Positions 4,144 through 27,904 of a DNA stretch of 64,000 nucleotides are shown here, in pieces. Each line of letters begins with the position of its first letter. Positions within the stretch are counted from its first letter, which is position 1. Origin of the DNA: a bacterium (lineage in GTDB: Bacteria > Zhuqueibacterota > Zhuqueibacteria > Residuimicrobiales > Krinioviventaceae). The notes below the pieces were generated by a model. The model ran no database searches, was not told where the DNA came from, and was given only the letters and a program-made list of their open reading frames with translations. Made by a program: the position numbers and the translations under genes. The stretch spans positions 186,001-250,000 of the forward strand of contig JAKQIY010000013.1 in NCBI GenBank assembly GCA_029561455.1, in the 5' to 3' direction.

Positions 4144-4179
4144 TAATACGTTTTATTCAATGCAGTATGAGGGAATCTG

Positions 4180-5196
4180 ATGATGAGCTTTAAAAAGTAT
4201 GAAATTGTCGGTAAAAACCTTCCACATATACCATGGGAAGAACGACCGGAAAAGCAACGTGATGTTTTATGGAGATGTAAAAATAATCCTGTAATTCCGC
4301 GTGATTTAATTCCTGGTTCAAACAGTATTTTCAACAGCGCTGTCGTTCCATACAAAGAGGGTTATGCCGGTGTTTTCCGGTGTGATGATAAGAACAGGTA
4401 TATGCGAATTCACCGGGGTTTGAGTAAAGATGGAATTCATTGGCATATCGACACAAATCCGATTCAATTCCTCTGGCATGAGAATAATAAACCTATTACT
4501 CTTGAATATGCGTATGATCCGCGGGTATGTTTTATTGAGGATCGTTATTATATTACCTGGTGTAATGGTTTAAATGGTCAACCCACTATTGGTGTTGCCT
4601 ATACATTTGATTTTGAAAAGTTTTTTCAATTGGAAAATGCGTTTTTACCTTATAATCGTAATGGAGTATTGTTTCCCCGAAAAATTAATAATAGTTTTGC
4701 CATGCTTAGCCGTCCAAGTGATACCGGGCACACACCATTTGGAGATATTTATTTCAGTTCCAGTCCGGATATGACCCATTGGGGCAAACATAGATTTGTA
4801 ATGGGTAAGTTAAAGGAAGGGTGGCAGAGTACCAAAATTGGCGCCGGACCAGTGCCAATTGAAACTTCTGAAGGATGGTTACTTATTTATCATGGAGTTT
4901 TAACTTCATGTAATGGCTTTGTATACAGCATGGGCGCCGCATTGCTCGATCTTGATGAGCCCTGGAAAACGCTGTACAGAACCGGTCCCTATATTCTTTC
5001 GCCGCAAGAGTATTATGAATGTGTCGGTGATGTTCCCAATGTAGTTTTTCCCTGTGCGTCTCTGGTTGATGCCGGGACCGGCCGTTTAGCTATATATTAT
5101 GGAGGCGCCGATACGGTAACTTGTCTTGCTTTTTCATATATTGATGATTTGATTGATTATATAAAAAACAATTCTGTCCCTGTAACTAACAAATAA
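4180..5196 (+). CDS. GH130-family glycoside phosphorylase/hydrolase
   Basis: 338 aa. The five-bladed propeller family GH130 acts on beta-mannosides, as phosphorylases (mannosyl-glucose or mannooligosaccharide) or hydrolases. Visible family features: an N-terminal RCKNNPVI stretch, [19 protein letters not shown], the conserved EYAYDPRV containing the likely catalytic Asp, [21 protein letters not shown], and [10 protein letters not shown] near the C-terminus. No signal peptide is seen, so it should act in the cytoplasm on imported oligosaccharides. Start ATG 4180 follows GAGGGAA; a second ATG follows directly. It forms a likely operon with the ROK regulator and ends at a strong terminator. Substrate is inferred from the family only. 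Confidence 0.85.
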
Positions 5197-8590: not shown

Positions 8591-9204
8591 GTTTTTTCCT
8601 TAATAAGCCGGAGGTTTTTTACCTGAATTAAACTGAAAATTATTTTTTAATTCCGGGTACAAGCTTGTAAAAGATGGATACATAATAAAATTGCGTTTGC
8701 TAATTATTCACTTTCACTTTATTGTCGATCCTAAATTGCATTTTATAGCCGCAAGTTAAAACAAACAATAAACTTTTGCAATCTTTATGCCATATATTTT
8801 TTGACTAAAATATTCCCACCCTTCCCGTGAACATAACCTGCCGGCACAATTCTTTCCTAACGCTACTCAAACTCGGCCGAAGCTGATTAGCCGTGAAATA
8901 GGAATATAAATTATTGTCATTTAAATGTAACCGGTAACATTTTTTTAAAAAGGAATATGCAAGAAAAAATTGGTAAAATCAACAAGATTTTTTTAGTTTC
9001 TACCCGGTCGGGTAAAAAGTCTCCGGTTTTCGTCTGATATAATAAGAGATTGTGTGTTGAAAAAATTGTACAAGCAGGTGAATAAATTTAAAATTTCAGA
9101 TTCCGGTTGTATTTCAAATTTTTATTAGCTAATTTGCATCAATATCCCGATTTCAAAGAGCCGGGAGCTTTATATATAATCAAATAATACTTTTGCCTTA
9201 CTTT
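8591..9204. other. Divergent intergenic region
   Basis: 614 nt between two divergent sensor genes. It holds the 20-nt palindrome at 8923-8942 and a second inverted repeat, TACCCG-GT-CGGGTA at 9001-9014. A weak minus-strand promoter can be drawn (GTTACA at 8926-8931, 17 nt, TATATT at 8903-8908), with its -35 box inside the first palindrome. No convincing gene was seen here. Confidence 0.5.
8923..8942. promoter_or_regulatory. LacI/GntR-type operator palindrome
   Basis: The core ATGTAACCGGTAACAT matches its own reverse complement at 14 of 16 positions, and the flanking AA/TT extends the symmetry. It is nearly the operator known for E. coli GntR, a LacI-family repressor (ATGTTA-CCGG-TAACAT). No LacI gene is in the window, so the regulator must be elsewhere. 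Confidence 0.6.
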
Positions 9205-12200: not shown

Positions 12201-13329
12201 TGGGGTAAAAGATTCAGGAATCGGAATTCCTGCCGAGAACCTGGCGCATATCTTTGAACGCTTTTTTCATGCCCGCGATGAAAACCATCCCAACCAGGTA
12301 AGCTCCGGTTTGGGCCTGGCATTGTCCAAAAGGCTGACTGAACTGCATCATGGCGAAATAACCGTTACCAGCGAACCGGGAAAGGGGAGCTGTTTCACAG
12401 TTCGCCTGCCGCTTGGCGATAGGCATTTGCAAGCCGATGAAAAGGTTACTGCGAGTAACGGTTCGGCTTTTTCACTTGCCGCTGTAAAAATGCCGGTCGA
12501 TGAACTGATAACCGATGAAGCGCCGGATAGCGGTGCAACGGAAAAGAATACCGAAGAAAAGCCGTTGATACTTGTTGTTGAAGATGATAATGAATTACGA
12601 ACCTATATGATAAAAACTCTTGCCCGTAAATATCGGATCATTGATGCCGGTAACGGCAAAGACGGCCTGGAAAAGGCACAAAAACATATACCCAATATTA
12701 TTATCAGCGATATAATAATGCCACAAATGGACGGTATTGAAATGTGCCGCTGTCTGAAAAGTGATTTGACTACCAGCCACATACCGGTCATTCTGCTCAC
12801 CGCCAGGAGCGGCATTGAACAAAAAATCGAGGGACTCGAAACCGGCGCTGATGATTATATAGAGAAACCGTTTCATTTTCGTTTTCTTGATGCCAGAATT
12901 AAAAATATATTAAAATCGCGACAAAAACTTCAGCAGCGCTATCGCCAGGAACTGCTTACACAGCCGACGGTTATTGAGGCTGTTTCCATGGATGAAAAAT
13001 TTCTGGTAAAAATCAGCGAACTCATTGAAAAGCGGCTGGCTGATCCGGACCTGGAAGTGAAGCATCTGGCAATTGAGGTAGGCATAAGCCGCACCCTGTT
13101 ATTTGTCAAGTTGAAAGAATTGACCGGTTATTCTCCCAAAGATTTTATTAAATCCATCCGGCTGAAAAAGGCGGCTCAGTACCTGCAAAAAACTGATTTA
13201 ACTATTGGTGAAATTGCCTACCAGGTCGGTTTTATCTATCCTAAATACTTTAGCACCTGTTTTTTACAGCAATATGGTAAAACACCTTCCGCATTTCGTG
13301 AACAAGCCCGGGAACAAGTTATTAGCTGA
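9205..13329 (+). CDS. Hybrid two-component system (propeller sensor, kinase, REC, AraC)
   Basis: 1374 aa from ATG 9205; a TTG at 9193 is also in frame and no strong ribosome site is seen for either. Signal peptide ~1-21. Periplasmic sensor: two seven-bladed propellers of Reg_prop repeats (repeated NLWIGT..GGLNRF) to about residue 690, then a Y_Y_Y domain with YTNLDPGYYTFKVK. One membrane helix lies near 795-820. Then HisKA (DVAHEFKTPL, His852), HATPase (NLIDNAFKYSP, DSGIGIP, SGLGLAL), a receiver (Asp1169 in IIISDIIMP) and a C-terminal AraC helix-turn-helix. This is the classic architecture for sensing oligosaccharides in the periplasm and activating a neighbouring polysaccharide locus; here the pectin genes from 13572 are the obvious target (inference). 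Confidence 0.93.
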   Translation: MSKKKIITLIIWCLLLPAALGAQQGKIAFEHITIKNGLSDGRIDCIIQDSQGFLWFGTQDGLNRYDGYNFIVFDYDIFDSTSISSNWIRCILEDRQGNLWIGTEGGGLNRFNRKDETFTRWIHNADDPASICDNFVRSILEDSFGNLWIGTLNGLVRFDPEQGVFSSLPVDSTDPDNPILNDNITDVYEDNEQNLWIGLTERAFYYNPRDHSLVQVPFDGEVGRVAVIYQDSFNTIWIGGRYNGLWRYDRELHKLVRPHYFNHDTQSLGSSEIKEIFEDKDRNLWIATMHGGLQLYDRKTGNVTSYKNDPRDPSSLSSNSVRTMYQDRTGVVWLGMDGSGIDSFVKNYPIFQLYGNGVGNPDGLSNNTILSIFEEEDANLWIGTEGGGLDRFDRQKRVIRHYKNEKQQPNSISSNQVTCIYKDQDGIFWIGTKEGLNRYDRENDLFHRYYVKTSPITGNNFINVITGDNDGRLLLGSNNGLIIFDKAIREFSHLDYDVDNILNNEAVVTILIDRERLWWIGYLRSGLVRYNPATGDYVHYRSDPGAVNSLNNNFVQSLYQDKSGQLWIATRKGLNRFNKTTGEFFSYTKTDGLPSNVIVGILEDNSGNLWLSTTNGLTKFNIGQENFNNYDISDGLQGNQFWINSCFKSQSGELFFGGNNGFNTFFPDDMTRFLNPHIPPIVISSVKISNRPIIHNFPANSSGADTLRLSWRENQISFEFAALDYTRPDKNQFAYMLQGFDTDWIYAGTRRYANYTNLDPGYYTFKVKGTNNDGVWNETGTVLSLFISTPFWKTWWALVLYGIIAAGFIYAVNAYFISLVRIRHDLKIERMEKEKAREINQFKLQFFTDVAHEFKTPLTLIQAPLEEIITSRKRGFQYEHEFRLMHRNVRYLLRLVHQLLDFRKAEQGKMELKTSHGNIVQFIREVYELFSDSALKHGIDYQFIAGSENIDGWFDWEKLEEILVNLIDNAFKYSPNHGKICVTVDTVSSPEDTCPNVVIGVKDSGIGIPAENLAHIFERFFHARDENHPNQVSSGLGLALSKRLTELHHGEITVTSEPGKGSCFTVRLPLGDRHLQADEKVTASNGSAFSLAAVKMPVDELITDEAPDSGATEKNTEEKPLILVVEDDNELRTYMIKTLARKYRIIDAGNGKDGLEKAQKHIPNIIISDIIMPQMDGIEMCRCLKSDLTTSHIPVILLTARSGIEQKIEGLETGADDYIEKPFHFRFLDARIKNILKSRQKLQQRYRQELLTQPTVIEAVSMDEKFLVKISELIEKRLADPDLEVKHLAIEVGISRTLLFVKLKELTGYSPKDFIKSIRLKKAAQYLQKTDLTIGEIAYQVGFIYPKYFSTCFLQQYGKTPSAFREQAREQVIS

Positions 13330-13571: not shown

Positions 13572-14930
13572 GTGAAAAAAAGTTTATTGTTATTGGCGCT
13601 CGCCATTTTTTGTGGTTCGGCTTTAAGCGCAACTATCGATGTCCCGCCGGGAGACGGTACTTTGTCGCAAGCCATCACCGATGCCCAGAACGGCGATGTT
13701 TTACGACTGATCCCGGAAGCGCTTTATACTGAATCTGCAAATTCCAATTTCGGTACAATTACCGGTAAAACCATTACCATCGAAGCGGATGGGGACGGTT
13801 CAACAAAACCGGTTATACAACTATTAACTCCAGCTGATGATAATACCCTGATGTTCTTTCAACTGGCTGATCAATCCACCCTTACTTTACGAGGACTTGA
13901 ATTTAATGGCGCGCAGGGTGACATTGCTACGGTGGTCAATTTTATTAATTTTACAATGGGTGATTTCCCGTCTCCTGCTACTATAAAAAAGATCGTGGTT
14001 GATAATTGCATTATTCATGATCTGAAAGAGCATGTCATCCATGCCGGGAATACCGAAATGGCTTCCTATGTATTGGTTGATTCCACGATTGTTAATAATG
14101 TGATTATGAAAAATACCGGTACTGCGGTGTATTATAAATATGCCGGCGCTAATTATATTTCTGTTACCAATTCCACGTTTGATACAATCAACAGTTATGG
14201 TATGCGTATAGCCGGGCCGGGTTATTCCAACCTGCCCGATAATACTCCGGTTGTTATCATTGATCATACCACCTGGTATAACATTGGCACAACAGATGGC
14301 AGGGAGATAATTCTGGGCGAAAAAGGAACATTCCTGAATAACTGGACGGTGAGCAATTCCATTTTTGTCAAACAGGTGTTAAAGAGTAAAACTGTAATTA
14401 ATATTAAAGAGACGGTCTCTCCAGAAATCGCTGTAATTAATAATATTTGCTTGTGGGATGTCGGTGCGCGCGTGTGGCGCGATCACCCGGTCAGCGATAC
14501 GTTGAATGTCGATCCGGGCTTTCTCGATCCCGATAACAGTGATTTTACCTTGCCGGCCGGTTCGCAGTTACTGACGTTTGGCTCGAACGGCAAAGCTATT
14601 GGCGATCCGCGCTGGGCGACTAATGTCAGCGCTGTTGAAAATAATGCTCGCAACCAGGCAGCGCCGGCGCAGTTTTCACTGGCGCAAAATTATCCCAATC
14701 CCTTCAACCCGGCCACTAAAATTTCCTTCACCCTCGACAAAGCCGGAATGACGGAACTGGTTGTGTATGACCTGTTGGGTCACAAAGTAGCTGTACCTGT
14801 TCAACAGGTAATGTCCGCCGGAGAACACCATATTGTATTCGATGCTCAAAATTTATCCTCTGGCGTTTACGTGTACCGGCTTTACTTCGCAGGTCGCTCT
14901 TTAAGCAATAAAATGATGTTTATCAAGTAA
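13572..14930 (+). CDS. Secreted right-handed beta-helix protein with sorting domain
   Basis: 452 aa from GTG 13572, with a GGAGG site 6 nt upstream. Signal peptide ~1-19 (SALSA). Residues ~20-355 form a parallel beta-helix: TLSQAITDAQNGDVLRLIPE opening, GKTITIEADG, GLEFNGA, VDNCIIHDLKEHVIH, STIVNNV, NSTFDTINSYG. This resembles polysaccharide-lyase-like proteins (DUF4957/DUF5123 and chondroitinase-B-like folds) commonly found in pectin loci. I cannot identify catalytic residues, so activity is unproven. The C-terminus (NYPNPFNPATKISFTL, MMFIK) is a type-A sorting domain. It is the first gene after the HTCS and ends at a strong hairpin, so it may be its own transcript. Confidence 0.8.
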   Translation: MKKSLLLLALAIFCGSALSATIDVPPGDGTLSQAITDAQNGDVLRLIPEALYTESANSNFGTITGKTITIEADGDGSTKPVIQLLTPADDNTLMFFQLADQSTLTLRGLEFNGAQGDIATVVNFINFTMGDFPSPATIKKIVVDNCIIHDLKEHVIHAGNTEMASYVLVDSTIVNNVIMKNTGTAVYYKYAGANYISVTNSTFDTINSYGMRIAGPGYSNLPDNTPVVIIDHTTWYNIGTTDGREIILGEKGTFLNNWTVSNSIFVKQVLKSKTVINIKETVSPEIAVINNICLWDVGARVWRDHPVSDTLNVDPGFLDPDNSDFTLPAGSQLLTFGSNGKAIGDPRWATNVSAVENNARNQAAPAQFSLAQNYPNPFNPATKISFTLDKAGMTELVVYDLLGHKVAVPVQQVMSAGEHHIVFDAQNLSSGVYVYRLYFAGRSLSNKMMFIK

Positions 14931-15014: not shown

Positions 15015-16778
15015 ATGCTTCAGTCTAACGGTTTATTTTTGGCAATCCGGAATATGATGAAAACTCTATTGAAAATTCAATGCAATGCAATTTATGGTCG
15101 TTTGTCATTAAATTGCCTGAGCATTATCGTTTGTACAATTTTAATCACCTTTACAACAAACCTGGTTGCCCAGCAGCCGGCTTTTCCGGGCGCGGAAGGC
15201 GCCGGTAAATATACCGTGGGTGGACGGGGTGGGGTGGTTTATGAAGTAACCAATCTAAACGACAGCGGCGCCGGCAGTTTGCGTGATGCCGTCAAAGCCA
15301 ACGGGCCACGCACTATTGTTTTCCGGGTATCGGGAACGATCATTTTGAAATCAGCTCTTAATATAGATAAACCAAATCTTACTATTGCCGGACAAACTGC
15401 TCCCGGCGACGGTATATGCCTGCGCGGATACCAGTGTGTTGTTAAAGCGAATGATGTAATTATTCGCTATATGCGCTTTCGCCTCGGCGATGAAACCGGT
15501 GTGGATACGGATTGTTTCTGGGGACGATACTATAAAAATATTATCCTCGATCATTGTTCGGCCAGCTGGAGCGTGGATGAAGTAATGTCGTTTTACGGCA
15601 ACGAGAATTTTACCATGCAATGGTGCCTGGTTGCCGAAAGCCTGTATATGTCCAACCATCCCAAAGGCGCGCATGGTTATGGCGGAATTTGGGGCGGCAA
15701 AAATGCTTCCTTTCATCACAATCTTATCGCTCACCATTCCAGCCGTACACCGCGCTTCTCCGGTGGGGAAACGACTCCTTGTGAGAATGTCGATTTTCGC
15801 AATAACGTGATCTATAATTGGGGATTTAACAGCGCTTATGGCGGCGAAAGCGGTAAAATCAATATGGTAGCGAATTATTATAAAGCGGGTCCCGCTACCA
15901 AAAGCAGCGTTAAAAACCGCATTGTGCAGCTTACGGACGGCAACGGCGAGTGGTATATTGAAGATAATTTCGTTGCCGGTTATCCGGCAATTACCGAAAA
16001 CAATTGGGCCGGCGGGGTACAGGGCAGTTATGCAAATGAAGCAATTTCCAGGGTTACAACACCGAATCCATATACCCCTGTTACAGAACAAACCGCCGAG
16101 GAAGCTTACTTGTTGGTTCTGGAAAATGTCGGCGCCAACTTGCCGGTTCGCGATGCTGTAGATAACCGCATCATCAACGATGTTAAAACCGGCGCGGCAA
16201 CCTGCGATGGGTATTATTATGAAATAAACCAGGGTTTCAGCGATACTGCGGTTGTGCGCGGGATCATCGATTCCCAGAATGATGTGGGAGGGTGGCCGGA
16301 GTTAGCGAGTCTTTCCGCTCCGGCAGATACCGATCATGACGGGATGCCGGATGAATGGGAATCCGCTAATGGCTTGAACCTGAATGACGATTCCGACAGA
16401 AACCTGGTCGCCGAAAATGGCTATACCATGCTGGAAAATTATCTCAACAGCCTGGTCGATTCCGGCCAGACCCTGGTACAACACCGCCAGGCTGAGCCGG
16501 GGTATTTTAGTTTGCTGCAAAATTATCCCAACCCCTTTAACATGAATACAAAAATTACTTTTACAATCGACAAGAGCGATCTCGTCACAATAAAAATATT
16601 TGATATTACCGGACGGCTTGTAAAGAACCTTTACCGCCAAATCTGTACACCTGGAACATACCATGTAGAATGGAACGGCGTGAACGATTGGGGGAACGCT
16701 GTTGCCACGGGTATCTATTTCTGTGAATTGTCGATTAAGTCAGGTAAATCTAGTATGAAAATGCATTTACTTCGTTGA
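15015..16778 (+). CDS. Pectate lyase, polysaccharide lyase family 1, secreted
   Basis: 587 aa from ATG 15015; ATGs at 15054 and 15057 are alternatives, as no clear ribosome site favours one. The hydrophobic signal ends near NLVAQQ. The lyase domain (about 55-430) opens with FPGAEGAG, GGRGG and YEVTNLNDSGAGSLRDAV. It has the beta-helix ladder, WSVDEVMSFYG and the RTPR signature (Arg244/Arg247), where family 1 carries its catalytic arginine. It cleaves de-esterified polygalacturonan by beta-elimination, usually with calcium. Residues ~435-485 hold a calcium-loop repeat (DTDHDGMPDEWE). The tail NYPNPFNMNTKITFTI with a FlgD-like fold is the sorting domain, so the enzyme should reach the cell surface or medium. 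Confidence 0.92.
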   Translation: MLQSNGLFLAIRNMMKTLLKIQCNAIYGRLSLNCLSIIVCTILITFTTNLVAQQPAFPGAEGAGKYTVGGRGGVVYEVTNLNDSGAGSLRDAVKANGPRTIVFRVSGTIILKSALNIDKPNLTIAGQTAPGDGICLRGYQCVVKANDVIIRYMRFRLGDETGVDTDCFWGRYYKNIILDHCSASWSVDEVMSFYGNENFTMQWCLVAESLYMSNHPKGAHGYGGIWGGKNASFHHNLIAHHSSRTPRFSGGETTPCENVDFRNNVIYNWGFNSAYGGESGKINMVANYYKAGPATKSSVKNRIVQLTDGNGEWYIEDNFVAGYPAITENNWAGGVQGSYANEAISRVTTPNPYTPVTEQTAEEAYLLVLENVGANLPVRDAVDNRIINDVKTGAATCDGYYYEINQGFSDTAVVRGIIDSQNDVGGWPELASLSAPADTDHDGMPDEWESANGLNLNDDSDRNLVAENGYTMLENYLNSLVDSGQTLVQHRQAEPGYFSLLQNYPNPFNMNTKITFTIDKSDLVTIKIFDITGRLVKNLYRQICTPGTYHVEWNGVNDWGNAVATGIYFCELSIKSGKSSMKMHLLR

Positions 16779-16848: not shown

Positions 16849-19800
16849 ATGCAATTACAACACTTTAATTTACGGCGGATTATCCCGGTTTTTGTGGCGC
16901 TGATATTGATTTATGCAACACTTTTACCGGCGCAAACCCGCAGCCGGATTGCCGGAACCGTCATTGACGCCGAATCCGGCGAACCACTACCCGGTGTGAA
17001 TATAATCATTGAAGGGACCAGCCTGGGAGCAGCATCAGGCATTAACGGCCAGTATGTAATCGTCAATGTGCCCGTGGGGACCTATCGTCTGCGGGCTACA
17101 ATGATGGGCTATGAAGGGCAGGTAATTACCGATGTCATGGTTTCGCTTGACCGGTTGACCAGGATCGATTTCCGGCTTGTACCTACCGTCATTCAGGGCA
17201 GCGAGGTTGTGGTCATTGCTAAAAAGGATGAATTGCATAAAGAAGTATCCAACACCCAACTGGTTGTCAATGATGTTCAATTACAGGATGCTTCCGGCAT
17301 TCGAGAAATCAATGCCTTTTTAACCAAACTGCCGGGTGTTTCGGAAGAGAATGGTTTTCTTACTATTCGTGGCGGGTCTGCCGACCAGACGGGAATGATG
17401 GTAAACGGCATGTCGTATTTTAATGCCGCAGCCGGAAATGCCGAAACCAGTATCCCGCTTAGCGCTATCGAGCAGGTTTCACTCATGTCTGGCGGTTATA
17501 ATGCGGAATATGGAAATTTCCGTTCCGGACTCATTAATGTAACCACAAAATCCGGCGATAAAAGCGGCTATCATGGCACTTTTAGTTATTCCCGCGATCA
17601 AATGCATATTCGCCGTTTTGGCGATTCCTTTTATGATACTAATAATCCGGTACTCAAACCCTTTCTCGATCCTGCAGTTGCTTTTACCGGTACCGATGTT
17701 GCCTGGAAAGACGATCCTTATAAACTGGAGCAATATCCCCGCTTTACCGGTTGGAATGCCGCCGCCGAAACCTTTAATAAAGGCAAAGCGCCCGAAGATC
17801 AGTGCACACCGCTGGATTATTACCTGTTAGCCTGCTGGATGCACATGACCGAACCGGATTATAAAGGATTAGAAAAATTGGGTTATACTGTTTCCGAGGA
17901 ACAAAAAAAGTTGTTTGCAGAACACCACATGGAAGAAGAGAATGCCGACTGGAATTTTGATGGCGGTTTTGGCGGCCCGGTGCCATTAGTCGGCGATATG
18001 CTGGGCGGGGCTACTTTTTATCTTTCCCATAATGCGCGGGAACGGAATTATATTATGCCGGTAGTGCGTTCCAGCGATGAAAACTATACAACCTTGCTCA
18101 CCGTAAAAAGTCAGCCCATGAAAAATCTTTCGGTCACATTGAACGGGCTGCACAAACGGCAGTTTGGGGTGAGTCCCATCCGTCCCGCCTTTGGCGATTT
18201 CCCGGATGCCGGCCGTGAGGGTGGATTTATGCCGATCAACAATATAAAGTACGTTTACGCCAATCCCGAATACTGGTACGATCCGCCGTTTTTCCCGCTG
18301 CTCGATCAAACAACGGTAATGACCGGCGTAACAATTAACCATGTGCTGAATTCATCGACATTTTGGGAATTGACGCTGAGCGCCATGAACATCAAAGATC
18401 ATTCCCCGGTTGGCGATAACCGCAACCAGACCGTTATTACCCGATTCGGTCCTTTTGCCGTTACCGAAATGCCCTATGGCAAAATGCAATATGGTACTAA
18501 TACTGTGGACGGCTATACCTATCCCAGTTACGATGCCCTACCGGGTATTTCGCGCCGTTTTCGTAGAAAAGAGGGCGATCTGTATGATAATATAAAAGTC
18601 GGCCAATACCGCGCCAAGTTTGATATAGCTTCCCAGGTCAATTTGCATCATTATCTAAAGGGAGGTTTTGAGTATAACTATATTGATCTGAACCACAAGT
18701 TCTGGGAAAAATGGAACGAGAATTATTATAATGTTTATGAGTTTAATTACCATCGCACCCCCAGCCAAACCGGCTTTTACCTGCAGGATCAGATCAGCCT
18801 GGAGGCAATTGTTGCCAACCTGGGCCTGCGGCTGGATTATTATTATGGCGGCGGCGGGAAATGGCCGACCGGCGATGCCTTTGCTGTTGATGCTTTTACA
18901 CCACAAACAGTGGAAAGCGATTCCGTATTGTTCCATTACCTGGAACAGGGCCGTTCCTATATTTGGGATACCTGGGTGGCTTATGATAAAGAGCATCCCG
19001 GTTTTCTGCAACCGGTAAAAAATCATTTTACCGTCAGTCCCAGGATAGGTATATCGTTCCCCATTACCGCTCAGTCCAAGTTCTACTTTAACTATGGACA
19101 TTTCCGCTCCAATCCGCCCTATTATACAATGTATCTGTATCGTTATCGTTATACCAAAAATGGTTTGTACGATATGTCCAATCCCAATCTGGCGCCGCCG
19201 CGTACAATATCTTATGAACTGGGTACCGCTTATAATTTTTATGAAAATTATGTATTACGAATTGCCGGTTATTCGAAGGATGTGACCGGGCAACATGGTC
19301 AGGTAACCTACCAGAACGCCGACGGCAGTATCGATTATGATGCCTGGGCTAACAATGAGTATGAAGATATTCAGGGTGTGGAAATAAACCTGGCAAAAAA
19401 TGATAATAGCTGGCTGACCGGCTGGATCAATTTCAATTATATTTTAAAAAAATCGGGACTTACCGGGCGCGACATAATCACAGAAGTAACAATAAACAAT
19501 GATCAGGAAGGATTATATTCAGGTCAGGAAAGCCGTTCTTTACCCGTACCCAAATTAAATGCCAATGTTACATTTCGAACCCCCCGCCATTGGGGGCCGG
19601 ATGTCTTTGGCGGCAGTGTGCTGGGTAACTGGAATATGACCTTGTTTGCCGAATGGGAGAGAGGTGATTATTTTACCTGGAATCCTTTGAATGAACTGCA
19701 TTTGAATAACAACCTGCGTTGGCCGGATTACTTTATGATCGATCTTAAACTGACCAAGACATTTCAGGTTGGCGGTTTAGCGACCACATTTTTTGTTGAT

Positions 19801-20088
19801 ATCAGCAACCTGTTCAACTTTAAAGTCAGTTTAATGGAAAAAGGCTGGTGTTTTAACGAAGACGCCGGCGATGATATAAAATATTTTTCTTCATTACGTC
19901 TGCCAATGTATGCATCTTCCAGGTACGATGATCTGCGCGCCAAAAATCCAGGCTATTATATTGCCGGAAACGACCAGGTCGGCGACTTACGCTCCAAAGA
20001 CAAACCCTATATCAACGATCCCAATTATCCCTTTTGGTTGTATGGCGAACCGCGTGATATCTGGTTTGGATTACGCTTTAGTTTTTAG
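16849..20088 (+). CDS. TonB-dependent receptor of the pectin locus
   Basis: 1079 aa from ATG 16849, preceded by AAGGAG at 5 nt; a GTG at 16843 overlaps the ribosome site. Signal peptide, then a carboxypeptidase-regulatory-like domain (AGTVIDAESGEPLPGVNI, ~25-110), a TonB plug (DASGIREINAFLTKLPGV, IRGGSADQTGMMVNG, ~130-230) and a long 22-strand-type barrel ending GLRFSF. It should carry pectin oligosaccharides across the outer membrane (inference from neighbours). It has the size and place of a SusC protein, but the next gene is not a SusD; instead it is followed by a 725-aa exported protein and a PorV-like barrel. The gaps of 37 and 22 nt suggest one operon. Confidence 0.92.
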   Translation: MQLQHFNLRRIIPVFVALILIYATLLPAQTRSRIAGTVIDAESGEPLPGVNIIIEGTSLGAASGINGQYVIVNVPVGTYRLRATMMGYEGQVITDVMVSLDRLTRIDFRLVPTVIQGSEVVVIAKKDELHKEVSNTQLVVNDVQLQDASGIREINAFLTKLPGVSEENGFLTIRGGSADQTGMMVNGMSYFNAAAGNAETSIPLSAIEQVSLMSGGYNAEYGNFRSGLINVTTKSGDKSGYHGTFSYSRDQMHIRRFGDSFYDTNNPVLKPFLDPAVAFTGTDVAWKDDPYKLEQYPRFTGWNAAAETFNKGKAPEDQCTPLDYYLLACWMHMTEPDYKGLEKLGYTVSEEQKKLFAEHHMEEENADWNFDGGFGGPVPLVGDMLGGATFYLSHNARERNYIMPVVRSSDENYTTLLTVKSQPMKNLSVTLNGLHKRQFGVSPIRPAFGDFPDAGREGGFMPINNIKYVYANPEYWYDPPFFPLLDQTTVMTGVTINHVLNSSTFWELTLSAMNIKDHSPVGDNRNQTVITRFGPFAVTEMPYGKMQYGTNTVDGYTYPSYDALPGISRRFRRKEGDLYDNIKVGQYRAKFDIASQVNLHHYLKGGFEYNYIDLNHKFWEKWNENYYNVYEFNYHRTPSQTGFYLQDQISLEAIVANLGLRLDYYYGGGGKWPTGDAFAVDAFTPQTVESDSVLFHYLEQGRSYIWDTWVAYDKEHPGFLQPVKNHFTVSPRIGISFPITAQSKFYFNYGHFRSNPPYYTMYLYRYRYTKNGLYDMSNPNLAPPRTISYELGTAYNFYENYVLRIAGYSKDVTGQHGQVTYQNADGSIDYDAWANNEYEDIQGVEINLAKNDNSWLTGWINFNYILKKSGLTGRDIITEVTINNDQEGLYSGQESRSLPVPKLNANVTFRTPRHWGPDVFGGSVLGNWNMTLFAEWERGDYFTWNPLNELHLNNNLRWPDYFMIDLKLTKTFQVGGLATTFFVDISNLFNFKVSLMEKGWCFNEDAGDDIKYFSSLRLPMYASSRYDDLRAKNPGYYIAGNDQVGDLRSKDKPYINDPNYPFWLYGEPRDIWFGLRFSF

Positions 20089-20125
20089 ACTAGAATGTAT
20101 TGCATTGTGTAAAATGGAGTTGTGA

Positions 20126-22303
20126 ATGAATACAAATTTCAAGATTCTAAATAAAAACCGGTTGTCCCGGACTTTATATTCTATACTGATATTTGTTCTA
20201 CTTTTGGGATTCGGAACTAACGTTAAGGCGCAAACCCAACCGGAACTGGCCAAAGCCCTGGTTAAAACCGGTCATGTGTGGATGGGCGTAACCGCCAATG
20301 GCGACAAAGGGAGTTTTGATTACCGCGCCGGGTTTTTCCCTAATGATTATAACATTATCGGTATCCGCGGCCAGGAACAGGATGCCTGGGCCGGCGCCGG
20401 TTTCCGTTTGGTTACTACCAATTGGGTAGATCCGCTCGACACCTTGCATACCGTTGCCATTTATGGGCCAACCAATGATTTTATGCCCATCGGTAAAGTT
20501 GTAACCCCAATGACCAATTACATTCGTTATAAATATACCGAACAGGAAATTGAGTTTCAAAAAGTAGAGCTGGAAAATTTCGGGACCTGGGCTCCTGAAA
20601 AATTCAGCGCCGGGACTTTTGATCAGATTGTTGAAGTCACTACTGAAAATATTCTAGAAGTGCAGGTGCATCGCAAAATTTTGGCCTGGTCGCAAAATTA
20701 TAATAACGACTATGTTATCGTCGATGTAGAATTGACCAACGTCGGCAATGACACCTTGAAAGATTTTTACATCAATATCGAGTCTAACGGCGATAATACC
20801 TTCCGTTCCAACGGTTCAAATCCTTCGCCTGCCGCCAATGAACAATTTGACCCGGCTACAACCTGGCAGCATTATTACGGCGGCCGGGTTGGCGATTCCC
20901 TGCGGGTTTTCTATGAATATAGCGCCGATGATCCCCAGGCGCCGGGCGATAATATGGGCGCGCCGGTCTCTACACAGGGAGGTCGGCTTATTAATGCCAA
21001 ATTTATCTGGTATTCCATTCTGCATGTCTCTGCTCAACCTTATAATAATGCTGTTGAAGATGTGGATGATTTTTTACAGCCTAAAGTAACCTATGTTGGT
21101 AAAAGCAATCTTTTTCCTTACCAGAGTCAGGGCGATGAATACGGGGATAAAAATTTCTGGGCGATTCGCGGCGAGTATGCCGATTATTTCCCGATGAGCG
21201 GCTCTACCTGGCCGAACACACATCACGCCGGCAACACTGATGAACAGGGCAGCGCCGATTATGGCAGCCACCCGGCCGGCACCCATCAGGATAACAATTC
21301 CAAAATGTATAGCAGTTTTGGCCCGTATGATAATTTTGCTCCCGGTAAAAAGATACGAATTGTTTATGCCGGCGGCTTTTCCGGGCTCGATTTGAAAATG
21401 TCCAAAGAAGTTGGCCGAAAATGGCTTAAAGGAACTCTGGAAGACCCTCCGGGCATACCGAACGTGCAAACCGGATTTTTCCCGGCCAATTTTGTATTTC
21501 CCACTGAGGCTACGGAAATAGATAAACGCAAAGACCGCTGGGTGAGCACCGGGGTAGATTCCGTCATGAAAAGCGCCTGGCGCGCCAGGTGGAATTTTGA
21601 TCATGATTATAAAATCCCTCAGGCGCCGCCGCCGCCGGAAAACCAGGTTATTACCGGTTTAGGTACCGGAGTGGAAATAAAATGGACCGATCCCGAAGCG
21701 GAAAATATGGATAGCTTTGCCGGGTATCGAATCATGCGCCGCATTTCCAATATGGATACAGTTTTTTATGAACAAGTTTATAATTCCGGCGCCGACGATA
21801 AAGCGGAAGAACATCTGTATGTCGATAAAGATGTGCTTGCCGGAGCACAGTATTACTATTATGTCCAAGCCAAAGCCCAAATTGCAGAGAATGATCCTTT
21901 TGCTGACCCCACTACGCTCGGCAAGCTCATTTACAGCAGCAGGATATTGCAGCCCAATATTTACTGGGTCAATCCACCGCGGTCTTCTCAAACGGATTTG
22001 ACGAAAATACGTATTGTCCCCAACCCATATAATATCAATGATCCCTTGCTGGAACAACATGGTTGGACGGATCAACGGGGTATTCAGTTCTTTAATCTGC
22101 CGGGCAAAGTAACCATTAAAATATTTACCGAAAATGGCGATCTGGTGCAGACCATTGAACATGACAGTCCGGTTAGTTCCGGTTATCAATTCTGGGATAT
22201 GAGCACCCGCAGTCAGCAGATCATCAACAGCGGTGTTTATATTGCCGTTTTCCAGGCCCCCGGAGGCGATGTCGCTTATCAAAAGTTATTGGTGATCCGT
22301 TAA
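20126..22303 (+). CDS. Exported receptor-partner protein with Fn3-like domain
   Basis: 725 aa. ATG 20126 follows GGAG. Signal peptide ~1-36 (NVKAQ). The middle (40-480) is beta-rich with no family I can name; it contains DYRAGFFPNDYNIIGIRGQEQDAW-like and VIVDVELTNVGNDTL segments. About 500-605 is an Fn3-like domain (VEIKWTDPEAENMDSFAGYRI). The last ~100 residues (RIVPNPYNIND to YQKLLVIR) look like a variant sorting tail, with PNPYN in place of PNPFN. It is not a SusD: the alpha-helical TPR fold expected there is missing. Its position directly after the TonB receptor suggests a surface partner that binds or docks the ligand (inference). Confidence 0.75.
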   Translation: MNTNFKILNKNRLSRTLYSILIFVLLLGFGTNVKAQTQPELAKALVKTGHVWMGVTANGDKGSFDYRAGFFPNDYNIIGIRGQEQDAWAGAGFRLVTTNWVDPLDTLHTVAIYGPTNDFMPIGKVVTPMTNYIRYKYTEQEIEFQKVELENFGTWAPEKFSAGTFDQIVEVTTENILEVQVHRKILAWSQNYNNDYVIVDVELTNVGNDTLKDFYINIESNGDNTFRSNGSNPSPAANEQFDPATTWQHYYGGRVGDSLRVFYEYSADDPQAPGDNMGAPVSTQGGRLINAKFIWYSILHVSAQPYNNAVEDVDDFLQPKVTYVGKSNLFPYQSQGDEYGDKNFWAIRGEYADYFPMSGSTWPNTHHAGNTDEQGSADYGSHPAGTHQDNNSKMYSSFGPYDNFAPGKKIRIVYAGGFSGLDLKMSKEVGRKWLKGTLEDPPGIPNVQTGFFPANFVFPTEATEIDKRKDRWVSTGVDSVMKSAWRARWNFDHDYKIPQAPPPPENQVITGLGTGVEIKWTDPEAENMDSFAGYRIMRRISNMDTVFYEQVYNSGADDKAEEHLYVDKDVLAGAQYYYYVQAKAQIAENDPFADPTTLGKLIYSSRILQPNIYWVNPPRSSQTDLTKIRIVPNPYNINDPLLEQHGWTDQRGIQFFNLPGKVTIKIFTENGDLVQTIEHDSPVSSGYQFWDMSTRSQQIINSGVYIAVFQAPGGDVAYQKLLVIR

Positions 22304-22325
22304 TTCTATTAAGGAGATCGTCGTA

Positions 22326-23342
22326 ATGAAATATAAAAATTGCTTTTTATTTTTTCTTGGCCTGGTATTCTTTATGGCACATGTTGTGAAGGCCCAGGTT
22401 GGCCTGGACAAGGTGGCGCAAAGCACGATGAATTTCCAGCTTGTCAGTTTATCTCCCCAAGCCAGCGCCATGGGCGAAGCGTTTTGTGCGGTAGGCGCCG
22501 GCGCCGAGGGTATCTTTTTCAACCCGGCAGGGATGGTAGAAACCACAACAAAGTTTGAATTAAAGATGTCCATTACCCAATGGATTGCCGATATTAATTA
22601 CATGGCCGGCGCTATGGTATGGAATACCGGCAATTGGGGTTCTTTCGGATTCAGCATCATGTCGGTTGATTACGGAACGATTAACGGTACCAGCTTGCTG
22701 GCGCCGGGAGAATCGGGTTTGTACCCGATCGGTTTCAAGGATACCGGTGAAGTGAGCAATGTCGGGGCATATTCATTCGGCTTGACTTATGGCCGGGCCA
22801 TAAGCAGCCAGTTTTTTATTGCCGGTAATATGCGTCTTGCCGGCCAGAACCTCGGCCGGAGTATGGTTGCAACCGGTATGAAAGATAATAACGCCACCAA
22901 ACTGGTTTTTGACGCCGGTGTAAAATATTATACCGGTTTGAAGAGTTTCCGCTTTGGTATGGCAATACGTAATTTTTCTTCCAACATCAAACGTGAGGAA
23001 ATTGAAGAACAACTGCCGCTTTTATTTACTATGGGTGTTGCCATGAATATAATGGATGTTATTGACCCTGCTCACGCCGCCGATAATTCACTGTTGTTGG
23101 CTGTAGATTTCTTACATCCGAATAACTATTCGGAAAGGATGAATATCGGACTGGAATATAAAATATTGGGTTGCATTGCTTTACGTGGCGGTTATCAAAC
23201 CAACCGCGATCTTGCTTCCTGGTCCGCCGGTCTCGGTTTAAATACCACAATAGGCAAAAATAATATCGAATTTGATTATTCCTATTCCGCTTTTGATATT
23301 TTTGATGAAGTGAATCGTTTTGCAATCGGCATCGCTTTTTAG
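22326..23342 (+). CDS. PorV/PorQ-family (UPF0164-like) outer-membrane protein
   Basis: 338 aa, ATG 22326 with AAGGAG 9 nt upstream. Signal peptide ~1-23 (VVKAQ). Then come SLSPQASAMGEAFCAVGAGAEGIFFNPAGM, the family hallmark in two pieces, and about fourteen amphipathic beta strands ending FAIGIAF. This FadL-like barrel family includes PorV, which in T9SS shuttles CTD proteins at the outer membrane. Here it is the third gene of the TonB receptor unit, 22 nt after the 725-aa protein. It could serve secretion or attachment of the local CTD proteins, or be part of the uptake complex; the sequence does not decide between these. Confidence 0.82.
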   Translation: MKYKNCFLFFLGLVFFMAHVVKAQVGLDKVAQSTMNFQLVSLSPQASAMGEAFCAVGAGAEGIFFNPAGMVETTTKFELKMSITQWIADINYMAGAMVWNTGNWGSFGFSIMSVDYGTINGTSLLAPGESGLYPIGFKDTGEVSNVGAYSFGLTYGRAISSQFFIAGNMRLAGQNLGRSMVATGMKDNNATKLVFDAGVKYYTGLKSFRFGMAIRNFSSNIKREEIEEQLPLLFTMGVAMNIMDVIDPAHAADNSLLLAVDFLHPNNYSERMNIGLEYKILGCIALRGGYQTNRDLASWSAGLGLNTTIGKNNIEFDYSYSAFDIFDEVNRFAIGIAF

Positions 23343-23435: not shown

Positions 23436-26400
23436 ATGAAAAAAGTTTTGTTTCTCCTGGTAGTAGTTGCAGGAATCCTTGGTTCCGCAACTTTGTTTGC
23501 CCAAACACCGGCAATGGTGAATTGGTCATGTATGCCGCCGGATAGTCAGCAAGTTTCGGCGGTGGGTGGCAATCTTTCCGGTTTCCCGGAAATTGGCAGT
23601 CCCGGTTTTGTTGTACGCGATTATAATAACGGTCCCGGCCCTGACCAACGTTGGTGGCCTTATAGCGACGGCGCAGCGGTCAGTTGGGGAGAAGAGACCG
23701 AACAGGTCAATACCCGCTGGGTACAGTTCGCCGTCTATCCCGATCCAAATTTTGACTTTCATGCCGACAGCATGGTTATTTATCTCGGCGCCAAAGGTAC
23801 AAATATGATTCGCGCCAATGTTGTTACTTCATTTGACACCTCTTTTACACTCACCACAGTTTTGAACGATACGACCCTGGAACTGGTCAAAGATACTGAT
23901 TCCTTATACACTTTTATTCTAAATCAGGATGTGCTGAATGGCGATACACTCTATGTTCGCATTTATCCCTGGTACACCGGTGGTCAATCAACCTCAAAAT
24001 ACCTATATGTACGGGATTGCACTATTTATGGCGCTACCCAGTCTTTAGGATTTCCGGCTTCCGCTACCTGGGAACTGACTGATCCGGGTTCCGGCGGTAC
24101 AGGGTTAACCGTTGCAGTTTCCGGCCTGGTAACCGGACAGGAAGAGTTGTTGAATAATACCGAGATCAATAAATACTCCGGCCCGGATAACAGCCAGCGG
24201 GTGCGTATTGCCGGCAATGCCTGGCCTGCCAACCAGCTAACCCTTATCGATTCGGTTTTTATGCAGTTCGCCGTTGCTCCCAATGCCGGCTGCAAACTGA
24301 CCGTAACCTCGGTTGCTCTTGGCATTGCCGCGGCCAGTATTACCACTATGAAAGCCGATATTTATTGCGATACCGACTCGAATTTTACTGCGCCAACCCA
24401 GATCGCTTATACAACTCCCGATACCAGCGGCAATAACTATCTGCCAACCGATGCCCTGGTTCCGGTGCTGGCTAATCCCGGCTTGGTCGTAGAGGATGGG
24501 CAAACTTTTTATCTGCGGGTCTTTCCATGGGTGGATAATGATCCGGATGTGCGCACAGGAAAATATGTTTGTATTAAGAATGTGGTTATTGGCGGTGAAA
24601 TCGAAGGGACGGTTGTTTTTGACCCCCCTACGGTAACCACCACTGAAGTAACCGGCATTGCTACAACATTTGCCGGCAGCGGCGGTAATGTAACCAGCGA
24701 TGGCGGTTCACCCGTCACAGCCCGCGGCGTTTGCTGGAATACCACCGGCGCGCCGACCATCGCCGATGCAAAAACTGAAGATGGCGAAGGAGCAGGTTCC
24801 TTTACCAGCCAGGTTACCGGTCTCAATGCGGGAACAACCTATTTTCTGCGCGCTTATGCAACCAACGTCGCCGGAACTGCTTATGGTGAAGAAGTAACTT
24901 TTGCTACGCTGGATTCGACAACTGTGCCTACTGTAATTACCGGCGCAGTGAGCAATGTTATGGTTACCACCGCGCAATGCAGCGGTGAAGTAACTATGTG
25001 GGGCGGCGATTCGGTCATTGTGCGGGGTGTTTGCTGGAATACGACCGGTAACCCGACCATTGCGTATGATTTTACGATGAACGGCAGCGGCCTGGGTGAA
25101 TTTACCAGTATTCTCTATCCACTGGTGGAGAACACCACCTATTATGTACGCGCTTATGCCGGCAACAGTATTGGCATCGGTTACGGACAGGTCGATTCCT
25201 TTACAACCCAGATTCCTGCTCCACCGGTTACAAAAATAGTTACTGCCGACGGCAGCGGCGATTATACCTCAGTGCAGGCTGCCTTTAATGAAGTGCCGGA
25301 TTTTTACACCGGGCCTTATACTATTTACGTCAAAGCGGGCGTCTATTATGAAAAGCTGTTGCTGGATCGCAATAAAACCAATGTCATTTTGCGAGGTGAA
25401 GATCCACAGACTACCATTCTGACTTTTGATGATTACGCCGGCAAAGCGGGTGGCACTTCAAACTCGTATAGTGTGGGCATTGACGCCGATGATTTTATCG
25501 CCATGGATATTACCTTCCAGAATACGGTGGTTAATGACGGATCGGTGAACGACCAGCAAGCCGTGGCTTTGCGGGTGAATGGCGACCGGCAGGGTTATTT
25601 CAATTGCCGGTTACTCGGCTACCAGGATACCTTTTACGCCTGGGGCGGACGCGGCACCGGACGGGTATATATGAAGAATTGTTACATCGAAGGATCGGTC
25701 GATTTTATTTTTGGCCGGGATATCGTTGTTTTTGATAGCTGCCAGGTCCATGTCAATCGTGAGGGTGGCGCACTCACTGCCGCCAGCACCGAACCGGAAA
25801 CTCTATTCGGTCTGGTTTTCCGGTATTGTGCCATTACCGCCGATTCGATCGGTTTCGATGGCCGTCCCATAACCAGCTTTATTTTAGGACGTCCCTGGCA
25901 GAAATCGCCGCGCACCGTATTTATGTATTGCGATGAACCGGCATCCGTCGATCCCGCCGGTTGGGCAACCTGGAATGTCGCACCGGCGTTGTATGCCGAA
26001 TATATGTGTGCCGGCCCCGGCGCCGATTTCTCCAATCGAATCGCTATTGGTCGGCAGTTGACCGATGAAGAAGCCGCCGATTATACGCTGGAAAACATGT
26101 TTGCAAAAACCAGCTTTCCCGGATTCGCTTATGACTGGCTGCCGACCGAACCGGTGATCACTGCCGTATCCGACAGCAGGTTGACCGATGTCATTCCGAC
26201 CTCCTATGCCTTGCAGCAGAATTATCCCAATCCGTTCAACCCGGTTACCAGTATTCAATACGCTTTGCCGAAAAGCGGCAAGGTCAGGATCAGTATATTT
26301 AATGTACGCGGCGAACTTGTGGATATGCTGGTCGATTCCGTACAGCCTGCCGGTATCCATGAAATAAAAGTAAATGCTGTTAATTACGCTACCGGTGTGT

Positions 26401-26462
26401 ATTTTTATAAAATAGAGGCCGGCAGTTTTGTGCAGGTCAAGAAAATGCTTCTTATCAAGTAA
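23436..26462 (+). CDS. Multidomain pectin methylesterase (CE8), secreted
   Basis: 1008 aa, ATG 23436 with AGAAAGGAAG upstream. Signal peptide ~1-22. Two related beta-sandwich modules follow (about 25-210 and 215-390; both carry VQFAVYP/MQFAVAP and LYVRIYPW/FYLRVFPW), probably carbohydrate-binding. Then two Fn3-like repeats with RGVCWNTTG (about 395-590). The esterase domain spans about 597-905, with GYQDTFYAW (Asp731), VDFIFGRD (Asp756) and LGRPWQ (Arg819), matching the catalytic Asp-Asp-Arg of family CE8. It removes methyl groups from homogalacturonan, making substrate for the PL1 and GH28 enzymes. The C-terminus NYPNPFNPVTSIQYAL to MLLIK is the sorting domain. Confidence 0.92.
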   Translation: MKKVLFLLVVVAGILGSATLFAQTPAMVNWSCMPPDSQQVSAVGGNLSGFPEIGSPGFVVRDYNNGPGPDQRWWPYSDGAAVSWGEETEQVNTRWVQFAVYPDPNFDFHADSMVIYLGAKGTNMIRANVVTSFDTSFTLTTVLNDTTLELVKDTDSLYTFILNQDVLNGDTLYVRIYPWYTGGQSTSKYLYVRDCTIYGATQSLGFPASATWELTDPGSGGTGLTVAVSGLVTGQEELLNNTEINKYSGPDNSQRVRIAGNAWPANQLTLIDSVFMQFAVAPNAGCKLTVTSVALGIAAASITTMKADIYCDTDSNFTAPTQIAYTTPDTSGNNYLPTDALVPVLANPGLVVEDGQTFYLRVFPWVDNDPDVRTGKYVCIKNVVIGGEIEGTVVFDPPTVTTTEVTGIATTFAGSGGNVTSDGGSPVTARGVCWNTTGAPTIADAKTEDGEGAGSFTSQVTGLNAGTTYFLRAYATNVAGTAYGEEVTFATLDSTTVPTVITGAVSNVMVTTAQCSGEVTMWGGDSVIVRGVCWNTTGNPTIAYDFTMNGSGLGEFTSILYPLVENTTYYVRAYAGNSIGIGYGQVDSFTTQIPAPPVTKIVTADGSGDYTSVQAAFNEVPDFYTGPYTIYVKAGVYYEKLLLDRNKTNVILRGEDPQTTILTFDDYAGKAGGTSNSYSVGIDADDFIAMDITFQNTVVNDGSVNDQQAVALRVNGDRQGYFNCRLLGYQDTFYAWGGRGTGRVYMKNCYIEGSVDFIFGRDIVVFDSCQVHVNREGGALTAASTEPETLFGLVFRYCAITADSIGFDGRPITSFILGRPWQKSPRTVFMYCDEPASVDPAGWATWNVAPALYAEYMCAGPGADFSNRIAIGRQLTDEEAADYTLENMFAKTSFPGFAYDWLPTEPVITAVSDSRLTDVIPTSYALQQNYPNPFNPVTSIQYALPKSGKVRISIFNVRGELVDMLVDSVQPAGIHEIKVNAVNYATGVYFYKIEAGSFVQVKKMLLIK

Positions 26463-26648: not shown

Positions 26649-27833
26649 ATGATTTTTCATTTCACCCAAAAAAGTTTTATCAGTTCCCTGTTCACTATTT
26701 TAGTGTCCGGCGGGTTGTTATTCCTGCTAGTAATGGCTGCCTGTGCCCAGGAAGAAGATAACGACAACCAAAACAGCTCTTCTTTTGAAGAAGAACCAGC
26801 CCAGGATGAATTTAGAGATTTTTTGCTGGATCATGAGCCCGAATGGTTCAAATCACCGCAAGCGCAAATGATCGCGGAAAATATATTACTATTTCAACGC
26901 GCTTCCGGCGGTTGGCCGAAAAATATCACTCTCAACCGACCACTCACCGCTGCTGATAAAAAGAAACTCGCCGAGTATAACAATGAACCTTTTGCAACTA
27001 TTGATAATGGCGCTACTTTTACAGAAATGCGTTTTCTGGCTCAATTTCATGCCGTTTCAAAAAAACAGGATTATATTCTGGCCTTTTTAAAAGGATTGGA
27101 TTACCTGCTGGAAGCGCAATATGCTAATGGCGGCTGGCCGCAATTTTATCCCTTACGCAAGGGTTATTACTCTCATATCACCTTTAATGATGACGCCATG
27201 GTCGGCGTGTTGCGGCTGCTCCGCGATATTGCCGGTTCCCGGCCCGGCTATGAATTTGTAGATAGCGACCGCCGGGAACGCGCCCGGTTGGCTTGGCATA
27301 ATGGAATTGATTGTATATTAAAGACACAGATCAAAGTTAATAACCAGTTAACCGCCTGGTGCGCCCAGTATGACGAAAAAACCCTGCTGCCGGCCAAAGC
27401 GCGAAATTATGAACTGGTTTCTCTGAGCGGCGATGAAACCGTAAATATCATCCGTTTTTTAATGGAAATTGACAATCCATCCCCGCAGATAGTTGCTGCT
27501 ATACAAAGCGCAGTAAAATGGCTCGATGATGTAAAACTGACCGGTATGCGCGTTATCCGGCAACCAGATCCTAAAAGTCCAACCGGTTTTGATAAACAAG
27601 TAATCGCCGATCCGGACGCACCGCCGTTGTGGGCCCGTTTTTATTTAATTGGTTCAAACAAGCCGTTCTTTAGCGACCGGGACGGTAAAATTTATTACGA
27701 TCTGGCGCAAATCTCTTCCGAACGGCGCAATAACTATGGCTGGTTAGGCTACTGGCCGGAGGATGTGCTGAATCGGTATTACCCAAAGTGGCAAAAGAAA
27801 TGGGCGCCGGACTGGAATGTGCTGGCTCACTGA
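26649..27833 (+). CDS. Pectate lyase family 10 (PelA-like), predicted lipoprotein
   Basis: 394 aa. A long N-terminal hydrophobic segment ends in VMAAC (lipobox, Cys near residue 33), then an acidic linker (EEDNDNQ), so membrane anchoring is likely. The lyase domain (~70-390) shows family-10 features: ASGGWPKN, ATIDNGATFTEMRFLA, NGGWPQFYPLRKGYYSHITF with NDDAM, LTAWCAQYDEKTL and ELVSLSGDE, and a C-terminal FFSDRDGKIYYD. It cleaves polygalacturonan to unsaturated oligomers. Unlike PL1 and CE8 it has no C-terminal sorting domain. No good ribosome site is seen before ATG 26649. The GH28 gene follows after 71 nt. Confidence 0.9.
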   Translation: MIFHFTQKSFISSLFTILVSGGLLFLLVMAACAQEEDNDNQNSSSFEEEPAQDEFRDFLLDHEPEWFKSPQAQMIAENILLFQRASGGWPKNITLNRPLTAADKKKLAEYNNEPFATIDNGATFTEMRFLAQFHAVSKKQDYILAFLKGLDYLLEAQYANGGWPQFYPLRKGYYSHITFNDDAMVGVLRLLRDIAGSRPGYEFVDSDRRERARLAWHNGIDCILKTQIKVNNQLTAWCAQYDEKTLLPAKARNYELVSLSGDETVNIIRFLMEIDNPSPQIVAAIQSAVKWLDDVKLTGMRVIRQPDPKSPTGFDKQVIADPDAPPLWARFYLIGSNKPFFSDRDGKIYYDLAQISSERRNNYGWLGYWPEDVLNRYYPKWQKKWAPDWNVLAH

Positions 27834-27904
27834 ATATGGCGGTTAGCGACAGGCGTAGGGAGAGAGAAATAAATGTGGTTTTGGAATTGAAATCTGAGGA
27901 TATA

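Follow-up and report, generated by a model that had tools for sequence, protein, structure and literature searches.

Which outer-membrane machinery serves a pectin-degradation locus that has no SusD? The question is raised by a 64,000-nucleotide stretch of the genome of a bacterium of the phylum Zhuqueibacterota (assembly GCA_029561455.1, contig JAKQIY010000013.1, positions 186,001 to 250,000, or C29:186001-250000; hereafter, the window), the source genome being 5.85 Mb in length and 98.8% complete. Among genes for pectin-active enzymes, the window carries genes for a TonB-dependent receptor (T), an exported protein of an unnamed family (X), and an outer-membrane barrel of the PorV/PorQ family (V) (see the table below). 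A first-pass annotation of the same DNA had described three closely spaced genes in a pectin locus, and the open reading frames (ORFs), the enzyme genes around them, and the gaps of 37 nucleotides (nt) between T and X and 22 nt between X and V bear this out; terminator-like sites were looked for in both gaps and found in neither. T-X-V is a conserved SusD-less outer-membrane unit, and it seems to take the place of the classic SusC/SusD importer in several poorly studied phyla.

The arrangement recurs widely. Searching the source genome with X returned 15 loci, all 15 with a T-type receptor adjacent to X or one gene off, and the order T-X-V was found in nearly all loci where the contig permits, one (L029) reading T-V-X. 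X matches were obtained for each of the 60 class relatives and, phylum-wide, for 81 of 82 genomes, the match covering at least 500 of the 716 X profile positions in at least 63 of the 82; some of the other phylum matches comprise the C-terminal domain (CTD) only, so that the number of matches should not be read as the number of full-length X genes. The named genomes with X belong to KSB1, Calditrichota, Ignavibacteria, Melioribacteraceae, Kryptoniota, Neomarinimicrobiota, and Latescibacterota. Neighbours were counted for 142 X genes of at least 600 amino acids (aa), 134 of which have an upstream and 134 a downstream neighbour: T is the immediate upstream gene in 130/134 and V the immediate downstream gene in 103/134, with gaps within triplets of mostly 0-60 nt across genomes. 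Because the loci were chosen via X, these figures describe X rather than receptors in general. The search for the ordered triplet suggested in the first-pass annotation thus revealed conservation across several phyla, and chance gene grouping is ruled out by the recurrence of T-X-V in the source genome and dozens of others. Many of the surveyed genomes are metagenome-assembled genomes (MAGs), some of them doubtfully labelled, and the module was also seen on contigs labelled Planctomycetota and Actinomycetota (L183, L180), which represent mislabelled MAGs or transfer. At one locus (L135; G002 C15), three X genes (716, 714, and 715 aa) stand in tandem with no T or V between them.

The company kept by the triplet varies with the clade of X. 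The closest X clade (40-75% identity) has GH88, pectinesterase, GH28, glucuronate isomerase, GH43, and pectate lyase genes as neighbours, and this pectin-type neighbourhood of the clade at 40% identity or above spans KSB1, Ignavibacteria, and others. More distant X clades have other glycan genes alongside, often with a TIG-domain lipoprotein as a fourth gene. In many triplet loci other than those of the pectin clade, V is followed by a gene for a protein of about 400 aa with a lipoprotein-like start, a TIG domain, and a conserved ...GAPYYGR end (e.g., L016:10154-11356, L019:9555-10715, L193:9728-10975, and many more; one has beta-propeller matches). This fourth gene is possibly the counterpart of SusE or of another surface-binding protein; it is absent from the window.

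The first-pass statement that no SusD is present holds for the window locus and beyond it, as no SusD (PF07980) was found in the whole 5.85-Mb genome. Across the phylum, 30 of 82 genomes have SusD, usually as a single gene or a pair, and so do 7 of the 15 genomes contributing outside loci; Melioribacter roseus is reported to have one susCDE operon (PMC3534657). Eighteen SusD loci taken from relatives' genomes contained neither X nor V, and the receptors adjoining SusD in these loci scored 53-130 bits against the T profile, compared with a median of 1303 for the T of triplets. The SusD-linked receptors belong to families of TonB-dependent transporters (TBDTs) other than that of T and are not T orthologues. 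The lack of X and V at SusD loci, together with the low T-profile scores, implies that SusC/SusD and T/X are separate pairs within one phylum. A SusD gene next to T orthologues, looked for as the finding that would speak against a SusD-less unit, is ruled out for these 18 loci.

The three genes also appear to have evolved together. For 71 triplets with an X of about 700 aa, distance matrices correlated at 0.95 for T-X, 0.90 for X-V, and 0.93 for T-V, the permutation maximum being 0.14, and pairs below 45% identity still gave 0.87, 0.75, and 0.80, respectively. Linked duplication also gives mirrored trees, so that the correlation supports a unit and not contact as such. A mirror-tree value of r=0.95 for the source genome was set aside, since short and long forms of X had been pooled and the difference between them accounted for part of the correlation.

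What, then, is X? No Pfam family matched it at E≤1, the window X has no lipobox cysteine, and a lipobox-like match was found in only 5 of 118 X proteins. The AlphaFold2 (AF2) model, built from a 71-sequence alignment (pLDDT 91, pTM 0.88), is beta-rich, in agreement with the large beta-rich exported protein with an Fn3-like domain of the first-pass annotation; a profile match (E 7.6e-4) bears out the Fn3 domain. These properties (Pfam, lipobox, and fold) rule X out as an unrecognised SusD. The head of the model is a large beta-sandwich with one long helix, which VIA-align matched to the GH94 cellodextrin phosphorylase 5nz7 (Z 15.9, rmsd 4.2 Å, 264 residues) and to the GH116 structure 8r06 (Z 15.3), with GH65 and GH36 enzymes also among the best matches; background Z-scores in such comparisons are usually 7-8, well below these values. 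As modelled, the head corresponds to the N-terminal supersandwich and linker of GH94/GH116/GH65-type enzymes from which the catalytic (alpha/alpha)6 domain is missing. X could nevertheless be an active enzyme on this fold, such as a polysaccharide lyase or an exo-hydrolase, displayed at the receptor in place of a binding lid, as might be suggested by a match to the polysaccharide lyase 5nok (Z 10.9 over 208 residues) and by the near-invariant polar residues D166, Q190, R260, H300, and K469. We consider this rather improbable: the catalytic residues of GH94, GH116, GH65, and GH36 enzymes sit in the (alpha/alpha)6 domain, which X lacks, X belongs to no Pfam family, and the head is the most variable part of X across clades, conservation among distant members falling from 0.45 in the CTD to 0.22 in the head. 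Higher conservation of the CTD than of the head is what would be expected if the dock were shared and the head ligand-specific.

The other end of X resembles a sorting domain of the type IX secretion system (T9SS). The variant PNPYN tail noted in the first-pass annotation is present, although it falls below the cut-off for T9SS type A and represents a CTD subclass of its own. The tail matches the C-terminal domain of PorZ (Z 11.6, rmsd 2.6 Å, 87 residues, 21% identity), a PNP motif occurs in 118/118 X proteins, and Lys720, near the C-terminus, is invariant in the A2 alignment. Type A CTDs have a conserved Lys near the C-terminus (PMC10994853), and X thus combines the structural features of that type, namely, an Ig-like CTD, a PNP motif, and a conserved Lys close to the end. 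The median score of held-out X tails was 134 bits against their own profile, compared with 13 bits against a profile of the enzyme tails from the same loci; enzyme tails displayed the reverse pattern, and held-out tails were assigned correctly to X or enzyme in 109/109 cases, a separation that is helped by the enzyme tails having been chosen by their canonical motif.

In the source genome, a second group of triplets has an X of about 1150 aa that has only the tail in common with the window X: profile comparison of long and short X gave an hhalign probability of 99.2 over 101 columns, confined to the CTD, and full-length homology of the two forms is ruled out. A shared tail class combined with unrelated heads implies that the tail goes with T and V, whereas the head is exchangeable. 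The long-X triplets (L021, L022, L024, L026, L027, L028, and L029) encode X proteins of 1130-1296 aa, the head of which, about 1000 aa long and unrelated to that of short X, matched no Pfam family in the four tested.

The third gene had been called a PorV/UPF0164-like barrel, and V indeed belongs to the PorV family (NF033709, 158.5 bits, cut-off 90); it is not the T9SS PorV equivalog (NF033710, 41 bits, cut-off 250). There are 34 PorV-family matches in the genome. In a tree comprising nine triplet V from the source genome other than the window's own and seventeen from other genomes, triplet V fell on one side of a branch with 91/95 support, apart from the housekeeping-like PorV, PorQ, and others. 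The housekeeping-like PorV is encoded elsewhere, at C29:338593, and scores 231.6 bits against the PorV equivalog, just under the cut-off of 250, while SprA, the T9SS translocon, is also encoded in the genome (897.5 bits with neighbouring segments, cut-off 200). Adjoining the housekeeping-like PorV (L271:6516-10928) is a homologue of a T9SS-dependent inactivated M6 metalloprotease (552 bits, cut-off 600). Another PorV-family barrel is fused to an OmpA-like peptidoglycan-binding domain in a protein of 614 aa (L044:1357-3201, G000:C26:51419).

With a PorV-family barrel, a T9SS cargo, and long-X triplets in which a different head is carried on the same tail, T-X-V could also be read as a unit for T9SS sorting and surface display in which T is a signal or energy-coupling receptor and not an importer of the substrate of the locus. 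That T retains both plug and barrel, that the close clade lies in degradative loci for one sugar type, and that genomes hold many diverged copies, unlike a single housekeeping unit, make this very improbable.

T itself is a TBDT with a plug within a 22-strand barrel, according to Pfam together with the AF2 model (pLDDT 87, pTM 0.84). Its ORF begins at 16843 in a GTG-started version and at 16849 in the ATG version. The first-pass label of a SusC-like receptor stands for the N-terminal region only: T scored 45 bits against the SusC subfamily TIGR04056 (cut-off 368), over the N-terminal 134 residues, and a CarboxypepD_reg N-terminal extension also occurs in SusC-type receptors. The best match in a fold search was Cir (Z 35.5 over 553 residues), BtuB (Z 33.8) also being among the closest, and a SusC relationship by fold was rejected, because SusC entries are among the matches (8a9y, Z 29.1) but are outscored by others. 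Judged from the model, SusC is no closer a structural relative of T than receptors for siderophores or cobalamin are, and the label is too specific for the whole protein. When the source genome was searched from the receptor side, the receptors nearest to T were those beside X, with one exception, a T-like receptor scoring 500 bits that has neither X nor V beside it (C4:163327; L266:5322-13075, G000 C4). It is followed by five tandem paralogues, each about 330-346 aa long, the N-termini of which resemble those of lipoproteins (NCW.KQ.HDITR).

The nearest structural relatives of T, Cir and BtuB, work without a partner, and T has a complete TBDT fold, which raises the question of whether T works alone. 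X would then be an ordinary T9SS-delivered surface glycan-binding protein (SGBP-like) without contact to T, V would be its carrier, and a common substrate would account for the linkage; enzymes and the TIG-domain lipoprotein share the loci as well, so that linkage alone does not amount to contact. On the other hand, T and X form the tightest pair, both in gene order and in tree correlation even at low identity, free surface binders would be expected to shuffle more, and T has large extracellular insertions (aa 253-369 and 989-1071 in the AF2 model) that could hold a partner. On balance, we regard a T that works alone as unlikely, albeit a serious contender.

We favour, with somewhat better than even confidence, a reading in which pectin oligomers enter through T at the expense of TonB-coupled energy and X, delivered by T9SS, acts as a surface binder held by V, a proposal that draws on gene order, co-evolution, predicted fold, the T9SS-type tail, the separate V clade, SusD absence, and the T9SS translocon gene. 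X would be exported by Sec and would cross the outer membrane via T9SS by means of its CTD, a route to which the modelled fold and the motif of the tail point. V would serve as a PorV-like carrier dedicated to X, collecting it and keeping it at the surface (cf. SprF for SprB), and X would sit on or beside T, both the X-V pairing and the X-T docking being suggested by linkage and precedent. The head, an enzyme-derived sugar-binding fold, would capture oligosaccharides freed by the surface enzymes of the locus and hand them to T, which would act as the TonB-driven importer of a SusD-independent glycan-uptake unit. Transport is presumed to be inward, and the neighbouring genes suggest that the ligand at the window is likely a pectin or galacturonate oligomer. 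The first-pass annotation had offered either a different solution for docking ligand to the receptor or a joining of secretion and uptake, and it is the link between secretion and uptake that is strengthened, both by the T9SS-type tail on X and by the dedicated PorV subfamily.

Several observations weigh against this proposal. V does not directly follow X in about a quarter of cases, often with another triplet near, and a V may be common to neighbouring triplets where a triplet's own V is missing. The X tail scored 13.1 bits against the T9SS type A family TIGR04183, below its cut-off of 23. Restricted to short X, the mirror-tree correlation in the source genome is r=0.70 (p=0.034) in a small sample of five triplets, and cassette duplication of linked genes yields mirrored trees without contact. 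Finally, a supersandwich fold can equally belong to an enzyme.

Among known systems, SusC/SusD (RagA/RagB) of Bacteroidota is the obvious comparison: it likewise pairs a TonB receptor bearing a CarboxypepD_reg domain with an exported partner from the adjacent gene, lies in polysaccharide loci that also encode a hybrid two-component regulator, and occurs as many paralogous pairs per genome. X, however, is not of the SusD family, its beta-rich supersandwich differing from the TPR-type helical fold of SusD and its T9SS-type tail, without a lipobox, from the lipid anchor of SusD; furthermore, a PorV-like barrel is the third gene, and T is far below the SusC cut-off. BtuB-BtuG (PMC10404256) and XusA-XusB (PDB 9gbc) of Bacteroides also consist of a TonB receptor complexed with a non-SusD surface protein, and T matches both the BtuB and XusA receptors by fold. 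BtuG is a surface lipoprotein (PMC10404256), as is XusB according to the title of PDB 9gbc, whereas X has a supersandwich-Fn3-CTD architecture, no lipobox, and a PorV-like gene of its own; their ligands are B12 or a siderophore, and the likely ligand class of T-X-V is glycan.

As for the carrier, all type A CTD cargo shares one PorV in studied Bacteroidota (PMC12618676), and type B CTD cargo has dedicated PorP/SprF carriers that are encoded directly downstream and may anchor the cargo (PMC12618676, PMC9143113). T-X-V resembles SprB-SprF and other type B pairs in that a T9SS cargo gene is immediately followed by one for a dedicated barrel, a possible carrier and anchor of the cargo; it differs in that V is of the PorV family, not PorP/SprF, and the X tail is an Ig-like, type-A-like CTD. 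V shares the NF033709 family with housekeeping PorV/PorQ and forms a separate clade. The X-V arrangement has the type B layout, made up of parts from the type A/PorV family. Partner-capped receptors (SusCD, BtuBG, XusAB) and dedicated carriers (SprF/PorP) are already known; their combination here is apparently new. A search of the open literature, consisting of open-licence papers, turned up no account of a receptor, an enzyme-derived T9SS cargo, and a dedicated PorV recurring together as a module, although such a module may have been described earlier elsewhere.

More broadly, and with confidence falling a little short of even, we propose that SusCD is not the main glycan importer of KSB1/Calditrichota, Ignavibacteria, Neomarinimicrobiota, Latescibacterota, and other phyla. 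That role would instead fall to a machine of three parts that couples secretion to uptake: a dedicated PorV-type carrier would place a T9SS-secreted, enzyme-derived binder, with an exchangeable head on a common tail, onto a TonB receptor. If so, there would be a separate way to cap a TonB receptor, by T9SS delivery instead of a lipoprotein, and PorV-type barrels, thought to provide one general shuttle per cell, would have become dedicated partners many times per genome. Polysaccharide-utilisation loci are recognised by SusD as their marker, so that genomes with the module would be counted as devoid of these systems even when rich in them. The proposal also offers a testable model for unannotated families in abundant uncultured phyla.

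The features of the locus are listed below. Hybrid two-component regulators of the make-up found here are the usual type for polysaccharide loci.

Table. Features of the pectin locus and of its T, X, and V genes (window positions; domain residues of T refer to the GTG-started ORF)
Feature	Position	Strand	Evidence
Hybrid two-component regulator (Reg_prop, Y_Y_Y, HisKA, HATPase, receiver, AraC-type HTH)	9193..13329	+	Pfam
DUF4957/DUF5123 beta-helix protein, canonical T9SS tail	13572..14930	+	Pfam and family profiles
Pectate lyase, PelZ-like, canonical T9SS tail	15015..16778	+	NF041900, 138 bits, below its cut-off of 840
T, TonB-dependent receptor (22-strand-type barrel, plug, N-terminal CarboxypepD_reg domain)	16849..20088	+	ATG start; ORF, Pfam, AF2 model, fold matches
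T, CarbopepD_reg_2 domain, aa 36-124	16948..17214	+	Pfam, E 5.9e-18
T, plug domain, aa 135-226	17245..17520	+	Pfam, E 4.4e-9
X, 725-aa exported protein, unnamed family	20126..22303	+	ORF; relatives in class and phylum (counts in text)
X, Sec-type signal peptide, aa 1-36	20126..20233	+	Sequence; no lipobox cysteine
X, predicted head (beta-supersandwich plus linker helix), aa 37-498	20234..21619	+	AF2 model, VIA-align
X, Fn3 domain, aa 499-603	21620..21934	+	Profile; 7y6e, Z 11.0; model
X, T9SS-type C-terminal sorting domain with PNPYN, aa 625-725	21998..22300	+	PorZ match, Lys720
V, PorV/PorQ-family outer-membrane barrel, 338 aa	22326..23342	+	NF033709
Pectinesterase (CE8), Fn3-like segments, canonical T9SS tail	23436..26462	+	Starts 93 nt past V
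Pectic acid lyase (Pec_lyase / TIGR02474)	26649..27833	+	Pfam and family profiles
GH28 polygalacturonase-type enzyme	27788..29617	+	Pfam

Beyond the pectin locus, a ROK-family regulator gene adjoins a GH130 phosphorylase gene (window 2872-5196).

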